Source: Armatimonadota bacterium (GTDB taxonomy: Bacteria > Armatimonadota > Zipacnadia > UBA1398 > JAKPQA01). Taken from it: DNA of 41,056 nt. Under the pieces are notes generated by a model. It saw nothing but the letters and a program-made list of their open reading frames with translations, searched no databases and was not told the origin of the DNA. The stretch lies in assembly GCA_029547025.1 (NCBI GenBank), contig JAKPQA010000183.1:1-41056 (forward strand). The letters run 5' to 3'. Numbering within the stretch: the stretch's first letter is position 1; every line of letters starts with the position of its first letter. Shown here piece after piece: positions 1 to 29,848 of this stretch. A program made the translations under genes and the position numbers.

Positions 1-25
1 GTCGGCCGGACGACGACAGAGCGGC

Positions 26-54
26 CCGGGATGCGGCCTCCTGCCGCATCCCGG
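26..54. terminator. Perfect 12-bp stem-loop downstream of the MFS gene
   Basis: Positions 26-37 and 43-54 are exact reverse complements (CCGGGATGCGGC / GCCGCATCCCGG) around a 5-nt CTCCT loop. It lies about 155 bp beyond the stop of the minus-strand MFS gene and next to the 108-bp repeat at 61-168. There is no T-run on either side, so a classical intrinsic terminator is not certain. It could equally be part of the repeat element or a transcript-end stabiliser. Confidence 0.45.
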
Positions 55-60
55 CCTCCA

Positions 61-168
61 GATCGGGCGCGTTGGGGGCCCACCACGCTGAAGCCCGCGT
101 GGTTCCCCCCATGGCGCCCCTCCGCAACCAGGCTGATGGGCCACTGGAGCCCTGAGTTACCGCCGATG
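61..168 (+). repeat. 108-bp inverted repeat, copy A
   Basis: This stretch matches 4415-4522 read on the opposite strand over its full 108 bp with about 10 mismatches, five of them in one hairpin loop. The hairpin has stem 82-88 (ACCACGC) with 97-103 (GCGTGGT), extended by GGGGG at 74-78 with CCCCC at 105-109. Its loop is 89-96. No open reading frame with coding character covers it. It lies just past the 3' end of the MFS gene, and with copy B it brackets the MFS/MBOAT/SGNH cassette. Confidence 0.85.
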
Positions 169-210
169 CCCTCCATGGGCCTCGGGACCCGGGGGAGGCG
201 CCCAGCCGCA

Positions 211-1689
211 CTACTCGTCCCAATCATCCCCACGGAGCTTGTACGCCGTCCGTCTGAGCGCCGCGGCGCGCCGGACGGGCACGACCAGGGAGTGATGCAG
301 GTTCGAATGGAGGCTGGCGACGGCATCACGGATCGCCTTGCGCGTCGCATAGGCCCCCCGATCCTCGAGCCGCAGCACGAACAGCAGAGCGGCGAGCCGC
401 AACCCGCCTGAGATAAGGAACAGCAGCCCGTGGTATGTGAGGGGCCACCAGAGGAACTGGCCGTGCCAGTCCTTCAGAGCCCCGGCGACGGCGGCACCAA
501 ACACGCCGCTGAGCGCTCCCGCGATGGCCACCACAATGCTGTTGGCCGCCACATAGGCGCTCCCGTGATGGTCTGAAGAGTGTGAAGCCGTCAGGCCCAG
601 CAGCAAGTTGAAGTTCGCGAGGTCCACCCCCGGCCAGGCGAACACCGAGATCAGGATGAGGATGTAGCTCCACCAGAGGTTGTCCTTGGTGACCAGGATC
701 CACACGGCCGCGCCCGGGGTGATGAGCACCCCCGCGATGATCAGGATTGGCCGCCGCCCCATCCGGTCGATCAACCGGCCCCAGAACGGTGTGCAGATCA
801 GGGCCACGATGAGTGGCGCGCCGACCAGCACCAGGTTGGCGACCGTGTTGTTCAGCTTCACCACATCGAAGGCATACAGCCAGACATACTGCCCGACATA
901 ACCCAGACCGAAGGTCAGCGTCGCATTGTAGGCCAGGTAGCGCCGGAAGTTGGGGTTCCGCAACGGCCCGCCCAGCATGCCCCAGAAGTGAACTGAAGGG
1001 TCGGGCGCCCGCCCCGGCGGGTCCGGCACCGTCGCCAGGATCGCGAAATCGGCCACCCCGCAGAGAGCGGCAACCACGAGGCCGGCCGAGATCGTGCGCC
1101 GCAGCGCCACGTCGCCGATGACGCCGGCCTGGTCCAGGACCACGCCCACCAGCGTGGTCACGGCGAGGCCGACAAGCTGGCCCACCTGCATGCGGCGGGA
1201 GAAGTACCTTCCGCGCACCTGGCGCGGCACCAGATCGGCGAACCAACCGTAGACGCCGGGTGTCGCCACATGTCCCGCCAGGGATGAGATGGCCAGCAGG
1301 CCGAGCAGGGACATCCACCACCAGGCCTCAGGGATGAACCACGGGATGGCGGCCACGAGCACCCACATCGACCGATGGAACAACCCGGCGGCCAGGAACA
1401 GGCGTTTGCGGCCTCCGTAGTGCTCCATCACGTAGCTGGCCGGTAGCTGGGCAAGGGCACTGACGAACGGCACGGCAGCCAACAGGCCGAAGCCGTACTC
1501 AGGCATGTGCAGTAGTTTCGCGTAGCGAGTGAGCGCGGCGCCGGTGGTGATGTACATCCACAGCGAGCCAAACGCCCACGAGAGTGTCACCCGGCGCAGG
1601 GAACTGCGCAGGTTGTAGGGGATCAGGCGAGGAGGGACGTAGGTTTCCGGTCGGCCGTCATCCGACCCGACTGGACGCAACCGGGCCAC
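211..1689 (-). CDS. Major facilitator superfamily transporter
   Basis: This is a 492-residue integral membrane protein with about 12 hydrophobic segments and a central cytoplasmic loop near residues 220-240. The loop after TM8 reads GRLIDRMGRRP, matching the repeated MFS motif G-x-L-x-D-R-x-G-R-R. The C-terminus is a basic cytoplasmic tail. The substrate cannot be read from the sequence; distant relatives carry sugars or peptides. The reading frame opens with GTG at 1689, but GGAGG sits only one base before it. The TTG three codons downstream has a better 10-nt spacing, so the start is uncertain by a few residues. A promoter lies at 1716-1744. It is followed on the same strand by repeat copy A and is co-oriented with the MBOAT/SGNH genes upstream. 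Confidence 0.9.
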   Translation of the reverse strand: MARLRPVGSDDGRPETYVPPRLIPYNLRSSLRRVTLSWAFGSLWMYITTGAALTRYAKLLHMPEYGFGLLAAVPFVSALAQLPASYVMEHYGGRKRLFLAAGLFHRSMWVLVAAIPWFIPEAWWWMSLLGLLAISSLAGHVATPGVYGWFADLVPRQVRGRYFSRRMQVGQLVGLAVTTLVGVVLDQAGVIGDVALRRTISAGLVVAALCGVADFAILATVPDPPGRAPDPSVHFWGMLGGPLRNPNFRRYLAYNATLTFGLGYVGQYVWLYAFDVVKLNNTVANLVLVGAPLIVALICTPFWGRLIDRMGRRPILIIAGVLITPGAAVWILVTKDNLWWSYILILISVFAWPGVDLANFNLLLGLTASHSSDHHGSAYVAANSIVVAIAGALSGVFGAAVAGALKDWHGQFLWWPLTYHGLLFLISGGLRLAALLFVLRLEDRGAYATRKAIRDAVASLHSNLHHSLVVPVRRAAALRRTAYKLRGDDWDE

Positions 1690-1701
1690 GCCTCCATATC
1701 C

Positions 1702-1720
1702 ATGATGATAAGTCCATCAT
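1702..1720. promoter_or_regulatory. Inverted repeat overlapping the MFS -10 box
   Basis: ATGATG at 1702-1707 and CATCAT at 1715-1720 form a perfect 6-bp dyad with 7 bases between. The right arm coincides with the proposed -10 hexamer of the MFS promoter, a typical place for a repressor operator. A 19-bp dyad can occur by chance, so its operator role is inference. Confidence 0.35.
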
Positions 1721-1744
1721 CGACTCGACCCGGCTGGCTGTCAA
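1716..1744 (-). promoter_or_regulatory. Sigma-70-type promoter of the MFS gene
   Basis: Read on the minus strand, a perfect -35 box TTGACA (1744-1739) is followed by a 17-nt spacer and GATGAT (1721-1716, 4 of 6 matches to TATAAT). The predicted transcript starts near 1709, about 20 nt before the GTG at 1689. This suggests the MFS gene can be transcribed separately from the MBOAT genes upstream of it. Confidence 0.6.
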
Positions 1745-1910
1745 GACACGGACGGCAGCCGCCAGGACCAGACGCGGGCCCCCGGACCGCACGGGGCCGC
1801 GCCTCAGTCTCTCGCCCATCGCCGTTCGACCTCGTCGGCCTTGTGGGCGACCTCGTCGCGCTTCTCTGCATCACTCGGCCATGCCTCTTCCTCCTCGCAT
1901 CGGGCTGGGT

Positions 1911-3179
1911 CTAGCCGAACCCAACCAGGCGGGCGAGCGCGCGCAGCGCCGTCGGGAGCGGACACGCGAACAGCAGCCAGCCGAGGGTGACGAAGTGGAA
2001 GGTGATGGTCCACCATACGAGCCGACGCAGCGGAGAGGGCCGGGAGTGAGGAAGGACTTTCAGCGATACGGGCAGCACGGCGTAGATGCATAGCCCGAGC
2101 CCGTGGTAGAGCCCCCAGAGCAGTAGACCCGCGGTATCGCCATGCCACACGCCGCAGAAGGCGAACGTGACCAGGTAGCCGACCGACGCCACGAGCTTCG
2201 GATGACGGCGGAGTCGAGTTCGCATGAGCCGCTTCGAGATCGGCATGAAGATGTATGCCTGTAGCCAACGCGTGAGTGTGATGTGCCAGCTCCGCCAGAA
2301 GGACTGGATGTCGAGCTGCAGATAGGGGCGGGCGAAGTTCTCGGGCACGGCTACGCCGAAGGCGGCACCGAGCCCGATGGCGATATCCGAGACGCCGGCG
2401 AAGTTGATGTAGATATAGGCGGCGTAGCCATAGAGCGCGAGCCACAGGGGCCCGGCGCCGTAGGCCGCGGGCTCAGCCAGGACTGGCAGAACCCAATCGC
2501 CCAGGTGAGCGGCGAGGACCGACACCTAGAGGGTGCCCCAGGTGATGCGCCGGATGGCCGTGGCCCAGTCGCGCGCTCGAGCGCCCGGAAGAGCGTCGAA
2601 GCTCCGAGCGAACTCGTCGTAGCGGTGCACGGGCCCGCTCGCGTATGTGGGGGGAAAGAAGACCATCGCCATGACGGTGGTGGCCCTGGCCTCAGGCGGC
2701 CTGGGTCCTGCGGCGTCGGCCAGCAGATGCACGAGCTTGAGGACCACATACGATAGCCCCATCACGGGCATGCCGGCGGTGCCCAGTGCCTGGGACAGGG
2801 CGGGAACGTGTTCGCGGAGCACCGAGAGTTTGCACACGGTCCACAATGCCATCACGGCGCCGATGGCGCACGCAATGATGGCCCGCCGCCGACCGGGTAC
2901 CCGTCGCGCGACGGCTAACGCGCCACACGTCACGAGAACACACAGCAGTGGCACGGCGAACTGGACGGCCATGGCGCCCGCGTCTGAAAGCTCGTTCTCG
3001 ACCCCGGTGGTCCATCGCCAGCGTGAGACGATAGCCGCGACCATGGCGCCGTAGACAGACAACTGCCACGCGCGTACTCGCCAGAACGAGGCCACCACGG
3101 CGAGGGCGAACACGATGTGAAGCGTGCCCTTGGCAGTCCGGAGGAGCACCCTCGTCGCGAACAGGAAGTGCTCCAACAT
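1911..3179 (-). pseudogene. MBOAT-family O-acyltransferase (AlgI/DltB type) interrupted by an in-frame TAG
   Basis: Two open stretches in the same frame (3179-2526 and 2525-1911) read as one MBOAT protein of about 422 residues split by a single TAG at 2526-2528. The first part has membrane segments and the family motif FFPPTYASGPVHRY. The second has NFAGVSDIAIGL, FWRSWHITLTRWL and the catalytic-histidine region VWHGDTAG...WGLYHG. By alignment with the AlgI-type motif GLFKKVVIAD, the TAG occupies the first lysine codon with no other length change, so one A-to-T change (AAG to TAG) explains it. The intact family moves acyl groups across the membrane for polysaccharide O-acetylation. The start is ATG at 3179, overlapping the SGNH stop as TGATG. 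TAG is an ordinary stop in at least ten other genes here, so recoding is unlikely; pseudogene, readthrough or assembly error remain. Confidence 0.85.
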
Positions 3180-4216
3180 CACCGGCAGACACACTCCAGT
3201 GTGGGCACCATCGCTTGGGCGAGGCGGTCATAGACGAGACCCATGTGCTGGCGACCAAAGTGCACGTCGTCCGCGAAGCTCTCCGGCGGGAGGACGCCAG
3301 AGAGGTCTGCCAGGACGGCCCCGTGGGCCTCGCACCACGAGCTCAAGGAAGACCGAAAGTGCTGGAGCGCCCCCGGCCCGAAGCTCTCATCGGCGTAGGC
3401 CGCGGGGAGGATCGCGACGACCAGCCTGCACCCCGCCGTCTGGATACGGGGACCGAGTTGGTCAAGCGTCTTGGCCGCTTGGCTGACCGGGTATCGGGAA
3501 GGCGGGTGGACCGGTATCGAGGTTCGGGCTCTCGCGTCAGCCTCCATCCGCATGGCGGGAGGAGGTACCGGGATGACGTGTGGAGCGAAGAGCTGCAGGA
3601 CCCCCAGGTAGCGCTCGCCGGGCACGATGTAGCCGTACAGGTTGTGCACGACATTCCAGCCGTTGTCCCAGTTCAGATAGGCCAGATTCCGGGCCGCGGC
3701 AACGGGGCCGCTCCCATAGCGGACGGCGAGGGCGGGAACCTCGTCGACGAACACGCCGCGGGCGGAACGGCAATCGCGCATCGCCATAGCCCAGACAATG
3801 ACGTCGGGGCGGTAGGCGAGGGACCGTTCGAGAAAGTGGGCCTGGTCTGACACCGAGAGCGCGCCCCATGCGAGCCAGTAGAGCTCAGCCCGAGGGCAGC
3901 GGGCGGTCACGGCCCGGTGGAGGCTCTTTCTCGCCTCGACTCCCTCCACCATACAGTTGCCGGAAATGACGATACGGACTTCACCGGGGCGCTTGGGCCG
4001 CGAGAGCGCGTGGCTCTCAAAGAGCCCACTGAAGTCGCGAGCGTAGATCACTCCGAGCGCCTCGGGGGCATGCAGCGTGTGTTCCTTGGGCAGCCGTGAG
4101 GTCAGCCGCGGGCCGATCCAGGCGAGCGCCAGGTTGGCTCCCACGAAGGCCACGCACCAGATGCGCACGAGGGCCACATCGCGCTGAACTTGGGTGACGT
4201 CTCTGGAAGCGCGCAT
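3179..4216 (-). CDS. SGNH/AlgJ-DltD-like membrane-anchored partner of MBOAT
   Basis: This 345-residue protein has one N-terminal membrane anchor (about residues 14-35) and an extracytoplasmic alpha/beta domain. Seen features are a block-I-like ISGNCMVEG (around residue 84) and a C-terminal DDVHFGRQH (D316, H319), which fits the Asp-x-x-His end of SGNH hydrolases. The usual nucleophile serine is a cysteine (C88, codon TGT). Such proteins work with MBOAT acyltransferases to pass acyl groups to surface polymers. The stop overlaps the MBOAT start by one base, indicating coupled translation. The ATG at 4216 has no good ribosome site and lies inside the ORF of the short peptide at 4017-4319, so the true N-terminus is unsure. 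Confidence 0.75.
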   Translation of the reverse strand: MRASRDVTQVQRDVALVRIWCVAFVGANLALAWIGPRLTSRLPKEHTLHAPEALGVIYARDFSGLFESHALSRPKRPGEVRIVISGNCMVEGVEARKSLHRAVTARCPRAELYWLAWGALSVSDQAHFLERSLAYRPDVIVWAMAMRDCRSARGVFVDEVPALAVRYGSGPVAAARNLAYLNWDNGWNVVHNLYGYIVPGERYLGVLQLFAPHVIPVPPPAMRMEADARARTSIPVHPPSRYPVSQAAKTLDQLGPRIQTAGCRLVVAILPAAYADESFGPGALQHFRSSLSSWCEAHGAVLADLSGVLPPESFADDVHFGRQHMGLVYDRLAQAMVPTLECVCR

Positions 4217-4319
4217 AGACGTTGGCCGGGTCGGCCTTCTGGTACATGAGACACAGCACCCAGATGAGGACCAACAGGATCGCTTCCACTGCGGGGTGTC
4301 CCAGGAGCCTCACAACCAT
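4017..4319 (-). CDS. Candidate short membrane peptide, DltX-like start, overlapping the SGNH gene
   Basis: ATG at 4319 is preceded by a GGGGGG run. The first about 35 residues are one membrane segment (AILLVLIWVLCLMY) followed by a tail ending ADPANVYARF. That arrangement, a single membrane helix then a hydrophobic-Tyr-x-x-Phe motif, resembles the acyl-carrier peptide DltX of MBOAT systems. Unlike DltX, the frame does not stop after the motif but runs on about 65 residues inside the SGNH gene with no recognisable content. It may be a real peptide whose stop was lost, or the frameshifted N-terminus of the SGNH protein. Existence as a gene is uncertain. Confidence 0.3.
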   Translation of the reverse strand: MVVRLLGHPAVEAILLVLIWVLCLMYQKADPANVYARFQRRHPSSARCGPRAHLVRGLRGSQPGARLDRPAADLTAAQGTHAACPRGARSDLRSRLQWAL

Positions 4320-4414
4320 CCCCCCGTTGGCGGCACCCGAGCGGCGCGGCTTCGGTAATGCGACTCCTACCGGGGCCGGTTCGGTCTGCGCCCGACGCTG
4401 CCACCCCGTCTCCC

Positions 4415-4522
4415 CATTGGCGGTAACTTGGGGCTCCAGTGGCCCATCCGCCTGGTTGCGGAAGGGCGCCATGGGGGGAACCACGCGTCTCCCAGCGTGG
4501 TGGGCCCCCAACGCGCCCGATC
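4415..4522 (-). repeat. 108-bp inverted repeat, copy B
   Basis: This is the reverse-oriented partner of 61-168, about 91% identical. The hairpin arms are 4480-4486 with 4495-4501, extended by G-run 4474-4478 with C-run 4505-4509, and the loop is 4487-4494. All paired bases match copy A, while five of eight loop bases differ. It stands upstream of the peptide/SGNH/MBOAT genes and reads in the same direction as them, so it could also lie in their leader transcript. Confidence 0.85.
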
Positions 4523-4776
4523 CGCACGTCTCAGCCTCGGGCCGGTCAGGGGCCCCGCGCCCTCTGGGCGCACCCCTGTGCAGCCCCTCCCAAAGACCAG
4601 GCGGGCGTTCCGCGCGACCTTCGCGAGACCCAGCCGCCCGGCCAACAGCCCTATGTTACCGCCAATGCCCGGTCTCCCTCCGCGCACCGCTCACTGGAAC
4701 CCGAACCCAAGCCGTTGGCGCGGAGTTCAGCCTGCAGCAGGCGCGGCACCCCTGGGGGCCGCGCCCGTTCGGGTAG
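4523..4776. other. Gene-free stretch with degenerate repeat fragments
   Basis: No frame here has a convincing protein. 4647-4670 matches 21 of 24 bases of the AGCCCT..GTTACCGCC.ATGCCC end of repeat copy A in plus orientation. Around 4583-4604 and 4688-4722 there are shorter look-alikes of other parts of the repeat (CCCCTCC...ACCAGGC; CACTGGA.CCC...CCAAG). I read it as decayed repeat copies between copy B and the FUN14 gene. Confidence 0.5.
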
Positions 4777-25991: not shown

Positions 25992-27230
25992 ATGGACGTC
26001 TGGGTTGGGCGGCAACCGATCTTCGATGGTGACGTCAAGGTACGGGCCTATGAGGTGCTGTACCGGAGCGGGGCTCGTGGTTCGCGCCACGTTGTGGGCG
26101 AGGATAGGGCGACGGCCGAGACGATCGTCCACACCTTCATCGACCTGGGGCTCGAGACCATCACCGGAGGCCGCCGGGCTTTCCTCAACTTCAGCCGCGA
26201 GATGCTCGTCGGCGGCTTCGCAGAGCTGCTCCCGGCCGACGCCGTCGTCATCGAGGTGCTGGAACACACCGGGGCCGATGACGCGGTCATCGAGGCCTGC
26301 GACCGACTCAAGCGGGCCGGGTACCGGCTCGCGCTCGACGACTACGTCCACGGCACCGGGTCGCACGAGCTATTGGTGCCGATGGCCGACATCATCAAGG
26401 TGGACTTCAAGCGGAGCAGCGTGGAAGCGCGGCTCGAGGCCGTGCGACAACTCAAGCGGCCCGGACGCGTTATGCTCGCGGAGAAGGTGGAGTCTGAGCG
26501 GCAGTTCGAGTGGGCCCGCCGGAACGGCTATGAGCACTTTCAGGGGTTCTTCTTTGCCCGCCCGTCCAACGTGCACGGCGAACAGATCCCGCAGGCCAAG
26601 GCGAGTTACATCCGCCTGCTCAGCGTGCTGCGCGAACAGACGCTGGACCTGGACGAGCTCGCGGGCATCATCAAGAGCGACGTGTCTCTCTCGCACACGC
26701 TGCTGCGGATGCTCAACTCGGCGGGCTTCGCGTGGCGCCGCCGGATCGAGTCAGTTCGCCATGCACTGGTGGCGCTTGGTGAGGACGCGACGCGCCGATG
26801 GCTATCGCTGCTGTGCCTTACGGCCATCGCCGCCGACCGGCCGCCAGAGCTCGTTGTGCAATCGCTGACTCGGGCGAGATTCCTGGAGGCCCTGGCGCCC
26901 GGGATCGGCCTCGAGTCACGTCAGACCGACCTGTTCTTCATGGGAGTGGTCTCCCTGCTGGGCGCGATCCTGAGGCGCCCACTGGCCGCCATCGTCCCTC
27001 AGCTGGGCTTGCCCGAGGACGTCGAGGCTGCGCTGCTGGGCCGCGGTACCGACATGGGTCATGCCCTGGACCTCGCTCGCGCGTTCGAGAACGGCGACTG
27101 GCGCTCCGTCTCCAAACTGTGCGGATCACTCGGCGCCAGCCTCCAGACCGTGCCCGGTCTCTACATCGAGGCCGCCCAACACGCGACGCGCGCGCTGGGT
27201 ATCGAGGACCGAGGTGACCAGGAGACGTAA
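25992..27230 (+). CDS. EAL-HDOD signalling protein 1
   Basis: This 412-residue protein has start ATG 25992 seven bases after GGAG. Residues 1-200 form an EAL-type domain of the YuxH group: AYEVLYR for the EAL motif, FLNFSRE (Asn), VIEVLE, LALDDY (Asp pair), IIKVDF (Lys), AEKVE and FQGFFFARP. Most metal ligands are kept, but the DDFGTG loop is altered to DDYVHGTG. Residues about 205-400 are an HDOD domain (helical, HD-related but without its metal site). Such proteins are c-di-GMP phosphodiesterases or degenerate binders. It is the first of three tandem paralogues and the only one with a longer C-terminus (DRGDQET). Confidence 0.92.
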   Translation: MDVWVGRQPIFDGDVKVRAYEVLYRSGARGSRHVVGEDRATAETIVHTFIDLGLETITGGRRAFLNFSREMLVGGFAELLPADAVVIEVLEHTGADDAVIEACDRLKRAGYRLALDDYVHGTGSHELLVPMADIIKVDFKRSSVEARLEAVRQLKRPGRVMLAEKVESERQFEWARRNGYEHFQGFFFARPSNVHGEQIPQAKASYIRLLSVLREQTLDLDELAGIIKSDVSLSHTLLRMLNSAGFAWRRRIESVRHALVALGEDATRRWLSLLCLTAIAADRPPELVVQSLTRARFLEALAPGIGLESRQTDLFFMGVVSLLGAILRRPLAAIVPQLGLPEDVEAALLGRGTDMGHALDLARAFENGDWRSVSKLCGSLGASLQTVPGLYIEAAQHATRALGIEDRGDQET

Positions 27231-27241
27231 GGGGGGCCGGG

Positions 27242-28462
27242 GTGGACTTCTGGGTCGGACGGCAACCCATCTTGGGGTGCCGGATGAACGTCGAGGCCTA
27301 CGAGCTGCTGTACCGGTCCGGGTCTGTGGGCGCTGCCGGTCCCATCGATGGCGACCAGGCGACGGCCCAGACGATCGTCCACGCGTTCGTGGACCTCGAC
27401 CTACCGTCGCTCACGGGCGGAAAGCGTGCGTTCATTAACTTCACCCGCGAGATGCTCGTCGGAGGCATCGCCGAGCTACTGCCGCCGGATGCCATCGTGG
27501 TCGAGGTACTCGAGACCGTGGACGCCGACGACCAGGTTGTCGAGGCCTGCACCCGGCTGAAGCACGCGGGGTACCAGTTGGCTCTTGACGACTACCTATT
27601 GGAGTCGGAACAGCACCAGCGGCTCCTGCCCCTGGCCGATGTGGTGAAGGTCGACTTCATGGGTAATGACCTGAGGGCCCGGGAGGAGGCCGTGCGGCGC
27701 CTCAAGAGTCCGGGCCGCCTCCTGCTGGCCGAGAAGGTGGAGACGGAGCCGGAGTTCGAGTGGGCCCGCCAACACGGTTACACGCTACACCAGGGGTACT
27801 TCTTCGCGCGGCCGACCACGGTCCAGGGGCAGCAGATACCGCCTGCCAAGCTCAACTACCTGCGGCTGCTGAATGCTTTGCGCAACCGCGAACTGGACCT
27901 CGATGCCGTCGAAGCGGCAGTTCGGGATGATGTCTCACTCACACACAGGCTTCTGAGGCTGCTCAACTCCGCCAGCTTCTCGTGGCGCCAGCGGATCGGC
28001 TCAGTGCGCCACGCGCTCGTGGCGCTGGGAGAGGATGCCACACGCAAGTGGCTCTCGCTCTTGTGTACCATGGGAATCGCGACCGATCGGCCCGCCGAGC
28101 TTGTGGTGCTCTCGCTGACGCGCGCCCGGTTCCTCGAGGAGGTCTCGGGCCTCATCGGTCTCGAGGCCCGTAGTGGTGATCTGTTCTTCATGGGCATGGT
28201 ATCCCTGCTCCCTGCGATCTTGGCGCGCGAAGCAGCGGAGGTCTATGCGCAGCTTGCCCTGCCCGACGACGTGCGACAGGCGCTCATGGGGGGCGGCAAC
28301 GTCCTGGCGAGTGCCCTGCGGATGGCCTTGGTGTTCGAGCGAGCCGAGTGGTCGCGGCTTCCGTCATTGTGCGCGGACCTTGGCACCACTCCCCGCGCGG
28401 TGTCGGACGCTTACATCCGGGCCGCTCGCCACGCGACGCGCGCCCTGGGCACTGAGGACTAA
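27242..28462 (+). CDS. EAL-HDOD signalling protein 2
   Basis: This 406-residue protein has GTG start 27242 behind AAGGGGGG, only 11 bp after gene 1. The EAL-type domain has AYELLYR, FINFTRE, VVEVLE, LALDDYLLESE, VVKVDF, AEKVE and HQGYFFARP; the loop after DDY carries no glycine pair at all. The HDOD domain covers about 205-400 and ends RALGTED, very like the neighbours. Within the trio it is the most changed in the HDOD C-terminal part (LARSGD-like region and MGGGNVLAS). A 165-bp gap follows, so transcript continuity to gene 3 is uncertain. Confidence 0.92.
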   Translation: MDFWVGRQPILGCRMNVEAYELLYRSGSVGAAGPIDGDQATAQTIVHAFVDLDLPSLTGGKRAFINFTREMLVGGIAELLPPDAIVVEVLETVDADDQVVEACTRLKHAGYQLALDDYLLESEQHQRLLPLADVVKVDFMGNDLRAREEAVRRLKSPGRLLLAEKVETEPEFEWARQHGYTLHQGYFFARPTTVQGQQIPPAKLNYLRLLNALRNRELDLDAVEAAVRDDVSLTHRLLRLLNSASFSWRQRIGSVRHALVALGEDATRKWLSLLCTMGIATDRPAELVVLSLTRARFLEEVSGLIGLEARSGDLFFMGMVSLLPAILAREAAEVYAQLALPDDVRQALMGGGNVLASALRMALVFERAEWSRLPSLCADLGTTPRAVSDAYIRAARHATRALGTED

Positions 28463-28627
28463 GTCTCCAGCCCGAGACCAAGATGGCGAGGCGGTCACCG
28501 TGTCGTAAGCATCCGGGAGGGATTGCGTACCGATTCCCTGAAGACGGGCTCTCAGCGGACGCGTCGGAAGCCTGGATGGGCGAGTCATGCGGTTACGCCC
28601 AAGCCAGTGGATTGAGGGGCGGTCGCA
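28463..28627. other. 165-bp gap between EAL-HDOD genes 2 and 3
   Basis: No coding frame and no clear promoter boxes are visible. I looked for a cyclic-di-GMP riboswitch because of the neighbours and did not find the class I or class II core sequences. The only assignable element is GAGGGGC just before the GTG at 28628. Confidence 0.5.
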
Positions 28628-29848
28628 GTGGACTTCTGGGTGGGCCGGCAGCCCATCTTCGACGGACAGGTAGTCGTTCAGGCCTACGAACTGCTGTACC
28701 GCCAGGGCCAACAGGGCCTTCGCTCGTCGGACCAGGGCGACCAGGCCACCGCGCAGACCATCGTTCACTCGCTGCTCGACCTGGGACTCCCGTCGCTCAC
28801 GGGCGGCCGGCGCGCGTATATCAACTTCACGCGCGAGATGCTCCTGGGCGGCTATGTCGAGCTGTTGCCCAAGGACGGTGTGGTCGTTGAGATCCTCGAG
28901 ACCGTGGACGTCGATGACGCTGTGGTCGGTGTGTGCTCGGAGCTTCAGCGCGCCGGCTATTGTCTGGCGCTCGACGATTTCACGCCCGGTGACGCCCGGG
29001 GGCCGGCCCTCCTCCCATTGTGTGAGCTGGTGAAAGTGGACTTTGTGGAGACCAGCGAAGAGGAACGTGCCGCGCTGGCTCGCGCGCTGCGGCCGTCCGG
29101 CCACACGCTGGTCGCTGAGAAGGTGGAGACCGAGCAGGAGTTCGAGTGGGCCCGGGCCAATGGGTTCTCCCTTCACCAGGGGTTCTTCTTCGCCCGGCCG
29201 ACGACGGTCCAGGGGCGCGTGAATCCGACGGCGAAACTGAGCTACGTACGTCTCCTGAGCACCCTTCGCCAGCCGGTGCTGGATTTCGACGAGCTCGAGC
29301 GCACCGTCAAGTCGGATGTGGCGCTCTCACACAAGCTCCTGCGCATGCTCAACTCGGCCGGATTCGGATGGCGGCGCCGGATCGAGTCGGTTCGCCACGC
29401 CCTGGTCGCTCTGGGGGAAGAGGCGATCCGCAAGTGGCTGTCTCTGGTCTGCATCGCGTCGATCGCCGCTGACCGCCCGCAGGAGCTGGTGGTGCAATCA
29501 CTGAGCCGGGCATGGTTTCTGGAGCAGCTCGGCCCTCATGTGGGCATGGGCGACCGCAAGACCGACCTGTTCTTCATGGGGATCGTCTCCCTGCTGGGAG
29601 CCCTACTCCTGCGGCCGATGGACGAGATCGTGGAGCAGCTCACATTGGCCAAGGACGTCGAGCGCGGGCTTCTCGGCCAGGATGGCCGGATGGGGGAAGC
29701 CCTGGAACTGGCACGAGCACTCGAGAACGCCGACTGGCGGGCCGTCCCGGTCATCTGTGGCGATCTGTCCACGGACCCGGGCATCGTCGCCCGTCTGTAC
29801 GTCGATGCGGTGCGCGAGACGTCGCGCATCCTGGGTGCCGAGGACTAG
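28628..29848 (+). CDS. EAL-HDOD signalling protein 3
   Basis: This 406-residue protein has GTG start 28628, eight bases after GAGGGGC. The EAL-type domain has AYELLYR, YINFTRE, VVEILE, LALDDFTPGDARG, LVKVDF, AEKVE and HQGFFFARP. DDF is restored here, unlike the DDY of the other two, but the rest of the loop differs from DDFGTG. The HDOD domain is followed by a C-terminus ending RILGAED. The stop TAG at 29846-29848 is in frame with the next gene, 30 bp upstream of its likely start. Confidence 0.92.
   Translation: MDFWVGRQPIFDGQVVVQAYELLYRQGQQGLRSSDQGDQATAQTIVHSLLDLGLPSLTGGRRAYINFTREMLLGGYVELLPKDGVVVEILETVDVDDAVVGVCSELQRAGYCLALDDFTPGDARGPALLPLCELVKVDFVETSEEERAALARALRPSGHTLVAEKVETEQEFEWARANGFSLHQGFFFARPTTVQGRVNPTAKLSYVRLLSTLRQPVLDFDELERTVKSDVALSHKLLRMLNSAGFGWRRRIESVRHALVALGEEAIRKWLSLVCIASIAADRPQELVVQSLSRAWFLEQLGPHVGMGDRKTDLFFMGIVSLLGALLLRPMDEIVEQLTLAKDVERGLLGQDGRMGEALELARALENADWRAVPVICGDLSTDPGIVARLYVDAVRETSRILGAED

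Follow-up and report, generated by a model that had tools for sequence, protein, structure and literature searches.

An inverted repeat pair in an Armatimonadota genome probably derives from two independent insertions of one MITE family

The window, i.e., the whole stretch of 41,056 nucleotides of an Armatimonadota contig analysed here, contains two inverted copies of a 108-bp sequence which enclose genes for an MFS transporter, an MBOAT acyltransferase and an SGNH-like protein, all on one strand. This arrangement raises the question whether the repeats move the enclosed genes or represent elements of their own. Our analysis indicates that they very probably belong to two copies of one MITE family that inserted independently of each other, with the transposase acting in trans. 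This reading is based on the inverted ends of the element, its 11-bp target duplications and high copy number, the location of complete copies between genes and the separate duplications of the two window copies.

The inverted repeats and the element behind them

Comparison of positions 61-168 with the reverse complement of 4415-4522 yielded 98 of 108 identical bases (90.7%) in an ungapped alignment, and the earlier note, which had described inverted copies of equal length and about 91% identity, was exact in its coordinates. The pair is by far the longest inverted repeat of the window. As also described there, half of the mismatches (5 of 10) fall in the 8-base loop of a hairpin, and the quoted stem is unchanged. 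When the copies were aligned with their flanks, they displayed a common sharp end after GTTACCGCC(A/G)ATG, and the border at 168/4415 is where the transposable element really ends. On the opposite side, two alternative modules occur instead of unique DNA: the border at 61/4522 is the point where two internal variants part, a class of 297/298 bp with an extra GC-rich hairpin module and a class of 253 bp, and homology returns farther out, in the left half. The length of 108 bp is a by-product of comparing two variants and not a natural unit.

The complete element in the window (copy 2, Table 1) is 253 bp long and has perfect 13-bp terminal inverted repeats, CATTGGCGGTAAC...GTTACCGCCAATG, which are also perfect in many further copies. 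The usual element sizes are 253 and 297-298 bp, the longer class being the one with the additional hairpin module, and no called gene lies inside complete copies. Internal duplication makes a few copies longer, with lengths of 405 bp (a 152-bp unit) and 615 bp (three related units); in such elements (L080, 2501-2905, and L081, 2501-3115), the unit of about 152 bp bears a hairpin and is tandemly duplicated.

The repeat is not confined to the window: a genome search with the 108 bp returned dozens of copies, many of them at contig ends. Reading of the copies as individual loci yielded 49 distinct copies of the 108-bp part, and the end pattern CATTGGCGGTAACNNAGGGC had 82 matches in the genome with one mismatch allowed, while its reversal had none in the same genome under the same setting. 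As each complete element has two ends, the 82 ends amount to at least 41 elements' worth. These counts bear out the earlier proposal that the repeat is a structured, non-coding element with many copies. The elements are short and devoid of a transposase gene, possess terminal inverted repeats and a target duplication of constant length, and occupy many unrelated sites, which are the properties by which MITEs are recognized. Hence, the repeats are a MITE family of at least 40 copies, non-coding and scattered between genes. The end pattern had no match in 290 other genomes of the phylum, and the end sequence had none in viral contigs; three matches in GTDB genomes, none with a good second end nearby, were taken as chance. 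As far as collections show, the family is new and apparently restricted to this lineage, and it represents an ordinary kind of element.

Table 1. Positions and strands of the repeat, element and gene features in the window.
Feature	Position	Strand	Evidence
108-bp part common to copies 1 and 2	61-168	+	98/108 identity
108-bp part common to copies 1 and 2	4415-4522	-	98/108 identity
Hairpin ACCACGC-loop-GCGTGGT, loop 89-96 belonging to one of a few haplotypes	82-103	+	Sequence and fold; haplotypes, pair counts
MITE copy 1, right 168 bp of 297-bp element	1-168	+	141-bp exact overlap with C312 end
Copy 1, right terminal inverted repeat GTTACCGCCGATG, differing once from the consensus	156-168	+	
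Target duplication CCCTCCATGGG of copy 1	169-179	.	11/11 with C312:8622-8632
MITE copy 2, complete, 253 bp	4415-4667	-	
Terminal inverted repeat CATTGGCGGTAAC of copy 2	4415-4427	+	
Terminal inverted repeat GTTACCGCCAATG of copy 2	4655-4667	+	
Target duplication of copy 2, one side, CCCCGTCTCCC	4404-4414	.	
Target duplication of copy 2, other side, CCCGGTCTCCC	4668-4678	.	10/11 vs. CCCCGTCTCCC
Block of bystander genes	211-4216	-	Pfam, in-frame TAG
MFS transporter	211-1689	-	Pfam PF07690
MBOAT acyltransferase with in-frame TAG (2526-2528)	1911-3194	-	Pfam PF03062
SGNH-like protein, 345 aa, without Pfam match	3179-4216	-	

Target duplications and insertion sites

Target-site duplications, which the earlier note had proposed to look for, were found with a length of 11 bp. 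The 11-mers flanking 22 complete copies matched at 10 or more of 11 positions in 12 copies and at 9 or more in 14, and both window copies have such a duplication. When lengths from 4 to 15 were tested, none but 11 bp brought any copy above 82%. As a control, the left flank of one copy was compared with the right flank of another. Of 462 such pairings, 3 matched, and each of these involved copies that seem to have swapped flanks through recombination or misassembly. The duplicated 11-mers tend towards a C-rich left and a G-rich right side, and 8 of the 22 complete copies are without a clear target duplication. Two groups of copies, L072, L076 and L078 (contigs C180, C278 and C306) and L074 and L075 (C65 and C66), have one flank in common and the other different, as would result from a swap of flanks between copies, either by recombination or during assembly.

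All 22 complete copies are located outside called genes, one of them touching a gene start by 3 bp, within surrounding sequence that is about 90% coding; genes were called by a simple method based on codon usage in the window. One further listed copy, the 23rd (L070), has an incomplete end and overlaps a weak gene call. With regard to a possible targeting of pre-existing hairpins, reconstructed empty sites folded slightly better than other intergenic DNA, which was not significant (P = 0.14). Orthologous empty sites were also sought in relatives and none was shown; the nearest of the genomes compared belong at most to the same taxonomic order and lack the SGNH-like gene.

Fold of the element

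A more far-reaching reading is a domesticated family, whose internal hairpin modules (the alternative modules at the left junction and the 152-bp tandem expansion), often located between convergent genes, would provide the host with genome-wide transcript-end or regulatory elements, and which would be moved by a transposase from outside the IS4 family. We regard such a scenario as very unlikely.

We consider it quite improbable that the element is in the first place a structured RNA or a regulatory element, maintained through selection on the fold and with its mobility secondary or ancient. It is true that the element as a whole has a strong fold (z -8.2) and a conserved core, and that its placement is intergenic, between convergent genes in 8 of the 18 classifiable cases. 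However, strong predicted folds, which arise from inverted ends and hairpins, are common to MITEs generally (PMC4133298), and an Rfam search of the window gave no match. When 45 distinct versions of the 108-bp part were compared, the mean minor-allele frequency was 0.18 in the loop, 0.028 in the stem columns and 0.017 in the unpaired columns of the first 67; the stem is no more conserved than its unpaired neighbours. TGGGAGA was the commonest loop haplotype, TGAAGCC occurred in six sequences and ACAGC in three, and the pattern of stem and loop reflects a few subfamilies with shared loop haplotypes. No compensatory change occurred in 28 pairs over the same sequences, where most pairs barely vary and the power is low, and the pair counts comprised 15 cells with compatible single changes versus 52 non-standard ones. 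As most pairs hardly vary, these counts represent a lack of support and no proof against structure. The selection for structure that had been read from the mismatches of the window pair is thus not supported.

The window copies, their neighbouring genes and the mobilising enzyme

Copy 1 is cut by the contig start, and its left 129 bp are located on contig C312 (from C312:8633). This left end was identified by a genome search for the right-hand 11-mer followed by the left end of the element, and C312:8622-8645 is the only place in the genome where all 11 bases precede a left end. The end of C312 overlaps the start of the window by exactly 141 bp, giving a joined copy of 297 bp; the join relies on an overlap inside a repeat and is backed by the matching 11-mer. 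The target duplication of copy 1 is perfect. Copy 2 is flanked by a duplication of its own (Table 1). As each window copy has its own 11-bp duplication, the two represent separate insertions and not the ends of a composite transposon.

A composite transposon moving the MFS, MBOAT and SGNH genes as one cassette, equivalent to the ends of a mobilised unit suggested in the earlier note, would fit the inverted orientation of the copies, their distance of 4.2 kb and the genes on one strand between them, and would be expected to show one duplication around the whole unit and none around its single ends. Yet separate duplications were found, and the sequences bordering the pair on the outside, CCCTCCATGGG and CCCGGTCTCCC, have only 4 of 11 positions in common. 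Similarly close pairs are present on C38 (2.7 kb apart) and C196 (3.6 kb apart), about as chance predicts (an estimated 1 to 2.4 such pairs for 41-60 copies in 6.3 Mb). In addition, no MITE copies occur in the 11 kb read around a paralogous SGNH-MBOAT pair on C203. We therefore consider movement as one cassette very improbable. The genes enclosed by the window copies are bystanders, and the false lead of a mobile O-acylation cassette is removed.

Both MBOAT paralogues carry one premature in-frame TAG each, at different conserved positions. The TAG of the window gene lies opposite a Lys codon of the C203 paralogue, and that of the latter (L139, C203:3000-14000, 7434) opposite a Trp codon, just before a conserved His. 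Reassignment of TAG as the cause of the broken MBOAT was rejected as unlikely, since TAG is the commonest stop codon of the called genes (81 TAG, 46 TGA and 7 TAA); both copies may be recent pseudogenes or consensus errors. Directly adjoining MITE copy 2 is a gene for a FUN14-family membrane protein (PF04930, 4777-5094, plus strand), here in a bacterium. Farther along the window, three tandem paralogous genes (25992-29848, plus strand) begin at 25992, 27242 and 28628 and contain repeated stretches that are 64-79% alike.

In the IS4 family, members of the IS231 subgroup have ends of the form CAT-------AA--TAA--- and direct repeats of 10-12 bp (PMC2266710); descriptions of the subgroup come almost exclusively from the Bacillus cereus group. 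The consensus end of the MITE, CATTGGCGGTAACTTAGGGC, agrees with this end at 7 of 8 conserved positions, sharing CAT, AA at 11-12 and TA at 15-16, and the duplication of 11 bp is within the published range; no other row of the published table fits both ends and duplication length as well (PMC2266710). Unlike the subgroup and its non-autonomous derivatives (MIC231), the MITE has G instead of A at position 17. It also differs from the subgroup in having no transposase gene, and no IS231-type transposase was found in the genome. We infer with moderate confidence that the element is mobilised by a DDE transposase from the IS4 family that resembles the IS231 subgroup most closely; such an enzyme would be expected to carry a YREK motif. 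Neither a longer element with these ends nor an IS4-type transposase (PF01609 or NF033592) was found in the 369-contig assembly, and as contigs of multi-copy IS are easily lost from an assembly so fragmented, the missing transposase is weak negative evidence. A REP/BIME-like element moved by a Y1 (RAYT, IS200/IS605-type) transposase, as might be suggested by its short, intergenic, hairpin-rich and high-copy nature and by two Y1_Tnp matches in the genome, has next to no probability in view of the 13-bp terminal inverted repeats and the 11-bp target duplications, since Y1 enzymes are not known to leave a target duplication.

The family resembles the BrickBuilt MITE of Porphyromonas gingivalis in having internal tandem repeats and no transposase remnant (PMC4596501). 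BrickBuilt, however, has a 23-nt repeat unit, ends resembling ISPg1/ISPg9 and variable target duplications (PMC4596501), whereas here the internal unit measures about 152 bp and is confined to a few copies, and target duplications are 11 bp long. The Tn3-derived miniature elements (TIMEs) are likewise small and non-coding, and they, too, possess inverted ends and are predicted to fold strongly as RNA (PMC4133298); they have Tn3-type ends and are usually single-copy, in contrast to the high copy number and 11-bp duplications observed here.

If the window repeats are parts of two independent MITE insertions, the element, which is about 253 or 297-298 bp long and is bounded by 13-bp terminal inverted repeats, would have been spread through the genome by a transposase acting in trans. 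An IS4-family transposase would bind the CAT... ends and then excise the element, and insertion would occur by an 11-bp staggered cut at GC-rich sites. Selection against gene disruption would let copies survive only between genes, and the strong hairpins may affect transcripts running through the elements. The analysis adds a GC-rich MITE family that has duplications of 11 bp and comes from a lineage without a detected presumed parent transposon, which is of modest wider interest, and it explains the breaks of the assembly, as many contigs end inside copies of the MITE.
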